64,000 nt of DNA, from NCBI RefSeq assembly GCF_900199705.1, contig NZ_LT904908.1, forward strand, positions 1,313,243 through 1,377,242. The letters are read 5' to 3'. Positions 16,922 through 61,244 of the stretch are shown here, one piece after another (positions within the stretch are counted from its first letter, which is position 1; the number at the start of each line of letters is the position of its first letter). Both the position numbers and the translations under genes were made by a program. The notes beneath the pieces were generated by a model. That model was not told the origin of the DNA. It was given only the letters and a program-made list of their open reading frames with translations, and ran no database searches. The stretch is from Collinsella provencensis. GTDB lineage: Bacteria; Actinomycetota; Coriobacteriia; Coriobacteriales; Coriobacteriaceae.

Positions 16922-17161
16922 GTTGCCTGCGCATTATGCCACACTTCGGCTGTTGCCTGCGTTTTTCTGTCGCTTTCCCTGCCGTTGCCTATGGTCTCCT
17001 TGCGTTGCCTATGAAATCTTGCGCTTTGATGATCTGAAAAGGTAGAAAACCATAGGCAACGGAAATGGACCATAGGCAACGGGATTTGTCTGTGGCTCCC
17101 TGCTATTGCCTGTGAAATAATGCGGTTTGGCGCCTCTAAAGTGCAGAAAACCATAGGCAAC
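16922..17161. repeat. Family B nested palindrome cluster, locus B1
   Basis: Copies of GTTGCCT(A/G)(T/C)G face right at 16922, 16952, 16984 and 17004; inverse copies CATAGGCAAC lie at 17051 and 17071; a further opposed pair lies at 17105 and 17152. Outer arms 16982-16996 and 17068-17082 are a perfect 15-bp inverted repeat around an inner pair at 17004/17051. The two inner units (17004-17060 and 17105-17161) are both exactly 57 nt. This fills most of the gap between the PHP gene and the lipase. Related elements are at 36110-36304. Confidence 0.85.
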
Positions 17162-36108: not shown

Positions 36109-36304
36109 TTTGCCTATGTTTGGCGGCGGTTGCCTGCGATCGGTTCGCGTTACCTATGGCAGTTCGCGTTGCCTATGCTTTTCTGCGCAATAACAGCTTC
36201 AAAATGCAGAAAACCATAGGCAACCGCAGAGGAGTGGGGGTAATGGGAAGAAAACCATAGGCAACCCCGAGATGATATAGACAACAGGTTGTAACCATAG
36301 GCAA
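36109..36304. repeat. Family B nested palindrome cluster, locus B2
   Basis: Right-facing words at 36109, 36129, 36149 and 36168 (about 20 nt apart) face left-facing words at 36215, 36256 and 36296 (about 40 nt apart). The innermost unit 36168-36224 is 57 nt and forms a 19-bp stem with one mismatch around a 19-nt loop. Outer pairs are 36149/36255 and 36110/36296. Same word and core length as locus B1. It occupies the gap between the FusA2-like gene's terminator and the flavoprotein gene. Confidence 0.85.
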
Positions 36305-36436
36305 TAGGCTCGCAATGTGCGCTCCCCGCGCGTGATGGCACGCCGGCCTACGCATTGATGACGCGGCGGAGAGTCATCCCGAGTGTTATCATGTCTCAGA
36401 ATTGTCACTAAACGCATGACAGTATGGGAGGCAACA

Positions 36437-59749: not shown

Positions 59750-60850
59750 TTACCACCATCGATAGCCATCATACGCAACCGTGAGGTCGGCATAACACTC
59801 TAACGGTGGAAGTTCATCATATGTTCCAGCGCCCCGAAGGCTGTTGAGGTCGCACAGCAGCCTGATATGACGCGAATAGGAAGCGTGTGGAACCCCATAG
59901 CTTTCGAGCAAATGCGCAAAGTAATACTCATCGCATACGTCATCAAACGAAAACCGTACAATTCGAGCGCCCGTGAGGCTGAGGCGTGATTCTCGGATTC
60001 GCTCCTGTCTAAGAACATCGACGCTGCTCTTTCCTTTGGTCATCGCAGGGTCTACGTACTTTTGACGTCCATCGAGCTCGCCGAGTATGACAGTCCCGTC
60101 GGGGAGTTCCCATTTGAAGTCGGCGCGCATGATGCGGCCGGGCTCAATAGGATCGCGGTACTCAACTTGGAGCTCTGGCATGGCAAAGCCGAGCGCAATC
60201 ATGGTCGCCCGAGCAACGGACTCCCCGCCGCTCTCACTTCGCGGGTCAGCGAGCTTCACCGTATCGAGAACTCGTTTGAAATACGCTCGCCCCTTAATCG
60301 GTTCATACTGCTCAAGCCAAGTAACAGCTTCTTTGGCGGACAGATTGAGCTGCCGAAGTGCAGAATCGACAACGGGCAGTGACAAGCGTAGGTCCCTCGT
60401 ACGCAGGCAGTCGAAGAGTGTTTGCTCCGCCGATGTTACGGGAAGTCCATCCACTAACTCGTGTTCAACCTGTTTGGAAGTTCGGCTCACGACAGCGTTA
60501 GCTCGGCGGTGATAGGTTGAGCCAAGGTGTATTTCTTCGAGTAATGCATACGATACGTTCCAGCCGCGGATGGTTGCGGCCGTGACATCGGCGAAGACCC
60601 AGGTGGGATGTTTGGTGTAAAGCGCCCGCGCGGCATGTATCGTTTGCTGTGTTGGGTCGAGCGCGTCCCATTTGTCTCTTCTGGCGTAGATTCCCGAATA
60701 TGGTCGAACGATCGGAAGGTTCGTCATATACGAATTCATTCTTCGGTTAAGCGCATCTCGAAGTCGCTGGGTGGGCGGAACAAGACACATATGGTTGCTT
60801 TCCGCTTGCTCGAACAAGATGATGAGTTCATCGTCTAGCGATTTCTTCAC
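59750..60850 (-). CDS. AbiEi-like / DUF559-type protein
   Basis: A 366-residue protein resembling the actinobacterial group annotated as type IV toxin-antitoxin AbiEi-like with a nuclease-like C-terminus. The N-terminal 60 residues look like a helix-turn-helix (RLRDALNRRMNSYM region). The C-terminal part holds a possible PD-(D/E)xK site: SESGGESVARATMIALGF, MRADFKWELPDG and GELDGRQKY (Glu and Asp near 257-259). GTG 60850 is chosen for GGAAGGGG upstream; the frame continues upstream without a site. No AbiEii partner is adjacent. It is flanked by family A repeats A2 and A3, which suggests an acquired island. Confidence 0.72.
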   Translation of the reverse strand: MKKSLDDELIILFEQAESNHMCLVPPTQRLRDALNRRMNSYMTNLPIVRPYSGIYARRDKWDALDPTQQTIHAARALYTKHPTWVFADVTAATIRGWNVSYALLEEIHLGSTYHRRANAVVSRTSKQVEHELVDGLPVTSAEQTLFDCLRTRDLRLSLPVVDSALRQLNLSAKEAVTWLEQYEPIKGRAYFKRVLDTVKLADPRSESGGESVARATMIALGFAMPELQVEYRDPIEPGRIMRADFKWELPDGTVILGELDGRQKYVDPAMTKGKSSVDVLRQERIRESRLSLTGARIVRFSFDDVCDEYYFAHLLESYGVPHASYSRHIRLLCDLNSLRGAGTYDELPPLECYADLTVAYDGYRWW

Positions 60851-61244
60851 GATACCCCTTCCGCAGCGTTTGATGTTGAGCGTGGTGGCTGTGACGGGGC
60901 GTGAACGTCCCGTATGATTTGAGCGCCCAACGTGACGCTTGTTTGCGGTTGCTGATGAAGGGGATAGTAGGCCGCTCAATCTGATAACAAACCAACAGTT
61001 GGGCCGATATTTCTAACGGGAACCTTACCTGCGTCCCGCATCTGTCGAACATGCCGACGTATGGCAATGCGCCGTCTCCCGCATGGGCGTTCTTTCTCAA
61101 CAGAATCTCGACAATGTTCAGGTGATGCTACATAGAACAATCGGAATCTGTCGGTTTGCAGATGGTGCTGATATATCGGTGGCTTGCTGTGTCGTTGCGC
61201 TCGCTGCCATGCTTCGTTGTCGCCCTTGCCGCCACACTCCTGCG

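Follow-up and report, generated by a model that had tools for sequence, protein, structure and literature searches.

Several described systems share part of the design of the repeat analyzed here. In eukaryotic foldback (FB/TU-type) transposons, short direct repeats, variable in number, make up the inverted arms on either side of a small center; the arm architecture of our repeat is alike, but the repeat is bacterial and far smaller, and the likeness is one of layout only. The ends of Tn7- and Mu-like transposons carry multiple transposase sites approximately two turns apart, and phased, inward-facing multiple sites also occur here, but with neither cargo nor transposase between the ends. Pneumococcal BOX elements are modular repeats whose internal units vary in number; this modularity is common to both, whereas sequence and layout differ, and those of our repeat are stacked to the left and right of a constant core. 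Bacterial MITEs, which to our knowledge do not usually carry outward-stacked short phased words, resemble the repeat in being small, dispersed, and without coding capacity and in having terminal inverted repeats; however, a search of the Y1 and rve families found neither a parent insertion sequence nor a transposase sharing the ends of our repeat. Alike in habit are the REPINs and REP-BIMEs with their RAYT transposase (TnpA_REP), which are likewise short, palindromic, intergenic, dispersed, clustered, and non-autonomous and contain opposed pairs at a fixed distance. REP hairpins are defined by a GTAG or CGTC tag (PMC3733652), compensatory changes are common in REPINs (PMC3116915), and RAYT-less palindromic repeats, such as the CGTC REPs, have no known mover (PMC3733652).

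The window, a stretch of 64,000 nucleotides (G000:C3:1313243-1377242), belongs to the 1.74-Mb Collinsella genome under study (G000) and contains two loci of the repeat family, comprising the following features:

16922 to 16932, plus strand: degenerate outer word GTTGCCTGCGC, off the 20-nt lattice
16952 to 16962, plus strand: degenerate outer word GTTGCCTGCGT, off the lattice, with the next word 32 nt on
16984 to 16994, plus strand: word of the left array, 20 nt out from core 1
17004 to 17060, no strand: 57-nt dyad core 1, with words at 17004 (plus) and 17050 (minus)
17070 to 17080, minus strand: word of the right array, 20 nt out from core 1
17085 to 17095, plus strand: degenerate word TTTGTCTGTGG in the left array of core 2, fitting the 20-nt lattice
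17105 to 17161, no strand: 57-nt dyad core 2, with words at 17105 (plus) and 17151 (minus)
36149 to 36305, no strand: second window locus, with a core at 36168-36224 and words at 36149, 36255, and 36295

The first-pass annotation of this DNA had described nested, opposed copies of a word, and its layout was confirmed: right-facing words at 16922, 16952, 16984, and 17004 are followed by left-facing words at 17050 and 17070 and then by the opposed pair 17105/17151. The outer 15-bp pair (16982-16996 with 17068-17082) is perfect, and both units measure exactly 57 nt and have the internal bases GAAAT, TGCG, and TTTG in common. The words at 16922 and 16952 are degenerate forms of GTTGCCTGCG. That annotation had overlooked the degenerate lattice unit of the second dyad and the fact that the word spacings follow a 20-nt lattice found throughout the genome. 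At the second window locus, two word spacings are 1 nt off this lattice.

The word was strongly enriched. With at most one mismatch, GTTGCCTATGG occurred 14 times in the window compared with 0.85 expected, and none of 100 shuffles reached 14; exact copies numbered 37 in the whole genome, compared with 0 for the reversed control word. Genome searches identified 27 core pairs within three mismatches, and a covariance model returned 82 two-strand matches, corresponding to approximately 41 places, so that the genome holds approximately 40 cores at approximately 24 loci. A set of 36 cores, collected by word match, represents only the stretches read around matches; a core length of 57 fitted all 36, and all 36 were intergenic according to a codon-usage gene caller written for this analysis. 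Mean column identity among the cores was approximately 80%. In a scan of inverted-pair lengths from 20 to 159, the lengths 57, 77, 97, 117, 137, and 157 dominated (29, 22, 21, 14, 8, and 5 pairs, respectively), and 57 is the favored core length. Same-strand words were spaced by 20 nt (n = 48, approximately 12 of which come from one long tandem array, L116) or 40 nt (n = 8), and no other spacing occurred more than three times. Nearly all words thus sit on one lattice with a 20-nt period and a 57-nt core, and nearly every copy has the same design, in which 0-4 right-facing words on the left and 0-4 left-facing words on the right surround the fixed core. L116 contains many more than four words in a near-identical, recently expanded array. 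The minimal unit is a 57-bp dyad comprising the inward-facing 19-bp half-site GTTGCCTATGGTTTTCTGC and its complement, with a 19-bp center between them. Approximately two thirds of the cores lie in the ori half of the genome (dnaA at 1219036), a bias too weak to build a role in ori/ter organization on.

We examined the range of the repeat among relatives. Strict word-pair matches were obtained in 4 of 45 Collinsella genomes; 16 further genomes of the family and 39 of the order yielded none. Besides G000, named matches to the same core came from three relatives (G005, C. intestinalis; G015 and G029, C. stercoris and a MAG), in which the core measures 57 nt (58 nt in some copies) and the array period is 21 nt rather than 20 nt. 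Both 20 and 21 bp correspond to approximately two helical turns of B-DNA. The concern that only the loci of the window might exist, with the 57-nt spacing not conserved in relatives, was therefore removed by the many loci and by the conserved spacing. Copy number ranged from approximately 2 to approximately 40 across the carrier genomes. The loci of G000 and those of the other species had no orthologous flanking gene in common, and the sole flanking-protein match between species involved two generic ABC-transporter ATPases with 27% identity. Outside Collinsella (84,980 species), nine single-site matches were detected, compared with approximately four expected by chance on our own estimate; they stood in other sequence contexts without a phased array, and two of them (L090 and L091) were unrelated long palindromes. 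Viral contigs contained no match to the repeat. The literature on Collinsella palindromic repeats, REP, or RAYT yielded no description of the family. This family of dispersed palindromes is of a new kind restricted to Collinsella, being carried by a few of these gut bacteria; it is REPIN-like in habit and fails the REPIN tests that we ran.

Three Collinsella genomes contain repeats of comparable appearance. In G021 (L177:1475-1625), a different word, GTGCGTATGG, shows the same layout with four units at 20 nt and is a possible word-swapped relative; TCGAACCTATGGG palindromes in G036 (L196 and L197), located beside another palindromic repeat, may be others. Weaker palindromes of G036 and G032 contain the inner TATGGnTTT...CCGTTT part. 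The TTGCCTATGG repeats of four Collinsella and the repeats of G021, G036, and G032 may constitute one superfamily.

The dispersal of the family is well supported. The window locus lies between genes encoding a PHP-domain protein and a lipase-like protein, which are also adjacent in G035, G005, G015, and G029; no word was found between them in these four genomes, and the gap between the genes is approximately 230 nt shorter in G005 and G015 than at the window locus. The simplest history would be an insertion of the window element in the lineage of G000, although a deletion common to the four relatives could in principle produce the same empty site. Furthermore, two cores separated by 684 kb (at 757177 and 1440837) show full identity over 57 nt and 97% identity over 75 nt, indicating that copies spread. 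The homology of this pair reaches 6 and 12 nt past the 57-mer and stops within a lattice unit; the element thus lacks sharply defined ends. No target-site duplication of the MITE kind was found against the closest relatives, which at only approximately 70% identity are too diverged to resolve one.

The phased blocks around a fixed 57-base center look like the footprint of a DNA-binding protein or transposase, whereas the first-pass annotation had considered a multi-hairpin RNA. Selection on a hairpin should leave each change in one arm accompanied by a matching change in the opposite arm, and this expectation was used as a test. Pairing across the dyad occurred in 78.1% of the cells, below the value of all 500 shuffles (mean, 81.1%); in an orientation-free test, the halves of one copy showed 279 mismatches compared with 253.6 +/- 8.8 when halves were paired at random (4 of 5000). 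Compensatory changes across the dyad were absent in both tests, and G-T mismatches (73) were about as common as A-C mismatches (81). Half-sites within one copy thus resemble each other less than randomly chosen ones do, so that RNA pairing is not the conserved property; the excess difference may reflect an intrinsically asymmetric element or an avoidance of perfect palindromes. Single copies do fold to approximately -10 to -28 kcal/mol, as a structured RNA with nested hairpins (an sRNA, terminator, or attenuator) should, but the negative covariation results, the lack of G-T preference, the unequal lengths of the left and right arrays, and the absence of Rfam matches (none in the window, and only tRNAs at the tRNA loci) render such an RNA very improbable. 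Comparing the two halves of each palindrome may serve elsewhere as a way to tell duplex-DNA sites from RNA hairpins. Passive tandem duplication followed by neutral decay around an old palindrome is supported by the near-identical array of L116; outside L116, however, the words and their 20-nt phase persist between diverged spacers, and we consider this account highly unlikely. Conservation across 66 array units covers positions 2-10 and 17-20, whereas at spacer positions 12-16 neighboring units agree approximately as often as the columns predict. That the 20-nt register has stayed constant while the spacers diverged suggests selection on both the site and its phase, as would be expected if a protein bound at every second turn.

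The REPIN-like reading of the first-pass annotation held in part: the repeat is palindromic and intergenic, with approximately 40 dispersed copies, an empty orthologous site, and an identical distant pair, and it is a fixed-spacing inverted pair in the manner of a REPIN, a likeness that concerns the pair and not whether its halves are REPs. Other features expected of a true REPIN were not found. A genome-encoded Y1/RAYT transposase was looked for, and none was found in G000, even at E<=10, or in C. intestinalis (G005); inspection of cores and flanks revealed no REP hairpin with a GTAG- or CGTC-type tag at its foot; and same-orientation arrays at two helical turns stand here in place of the alternating REPs. 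The repeat could nevertheless be a true REPIN family whose mover, a RAYT, was later lost from G000 and C. intestinalis, given that 39 of 45 Collinsella genomes have Y1 matches, among which are RAYT-like genes with matches to NF047646 (E 8e-21 and 3e-16) that fall short of its cut-off, and that the element carriers G015 and G029 each keep one RAYT-like gene. We regard this history as improbable: G000 has the most copies yet no Y1, the compensatory changes common in REPINs (PMC3116915) are missing, and none of the 20 Y1 loci read in Collinsella relatives had a core pair of the word, most of them being flanked by other repeats. An rve transposase was rejected as the mover because the sole rve-domain place of the genome (193718) has no word nearby; G015 had no rve match. 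More generally, the loci examined contained no word-flanked transposase. A host protein, such as a nucleoid-associated, chromosome-organizing, or transcription-end factor, might instead bind the phased arrays, with copies kept for the benefit of the host. The strict two-turn phase, the conserved words between diverged spacers, the scarcity of divergent promoters among the loci, and the position of all 10 tRNA-associated loci (16 cores) on the 3' side of the tRNA are consistent with this role. A patchy range, variable copy number, and loci unshared between species are nonetheless unlike a conserved chromosomal function, and we judge a host role rather unlikely.

We lean toward the reading that the repeat is a lineage-restricted, non-autonomous, foldback-like MITE composed of phased duplex recognition sites for a putative DNA-binding protein such as a recombinase. 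This protein, in the simplest case a trans-acting transposase or recombinase, would bind the words on one face of double-stranded DNA, including the extra words that stack outward by approximately two turns (20 bp here and 21 bp in relatives); it would pair the two halves across the core and copy or move the element, and the arrays would lengthen through 20-bp duplication. A broader proposal, which we offer tentatively and with some doubt, is that these repeats represent a new class of bacterial mobile repeat, in which the recognized unit is an array of duplex sites, variable in number and phased at two turns, that faces a fixed dyad, with a putative enzyme as the mover and a site specificity that changes between species (TTGCCTATGG in four Collinsella and GTGCGTATGG, with a 20-nt period, in G021). 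The conserved phase, diverged spacers, empty sister site, and small genome would offer a direct route to the mover through the protein that binds the word.

Several observations were made beside these analyses. In many Collinsella (L151-L170), RAYT-like Y1 genes are bordered by REP-like repeats particular to the species, such as TTGGGGACGTG in G023, of which the literature on Collinsella REP/RAYT gave no description. Two proteins, encoded at L102:2379-3518 (379 aa) and at window positions 59750-60979 on the minus strand (409 aa), are alike at the DNA level over approximately 180 nt and had no significant Pfam or NCBIfam match; the former gene lies between two element clusters, and no element adjoins the window gene, which appears to be its paralogue. 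At L100, inverted repeats of approximately 310 nt (658974-659278 and 666183-666496 of G000:C3), 79% alike and each with a 57-nt core, enclose approximately 7 kb of DNA, in which genes resembling those for butyrate/acetate kinase and thiolase were recognized by eye.

Three tRNA genes (Gln, Leu, and Ser) have a second copy of their 3' end approximately 180-190 nt downstream, within GC-rich repeated tails, at the following positions of G000:C3:

1440559-1440621 and 1440748-1440810: tRNA 3' end and its duplicate (L113)
1452209-1452286 and 1452388-1452465: tRNA 3' end and its duplicate (L114)
1180140-1180194 and 1180323-1180377: tRNA 3' end and its duplicate (L109)

These tails, which recall the tyrT/rtT repeats of E. 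coli, matched no Rfam family. A second repeat, MITE-like and approximately 158 nt long, has inverted ends CAAAAATGACGGAAATGC and is present in three copies in G000:C3, each near a 57-nt element:

1107305-1107461: copy at L107
1162904-1163061: copy at L108
approximately 1179996-1180153: copy at L109
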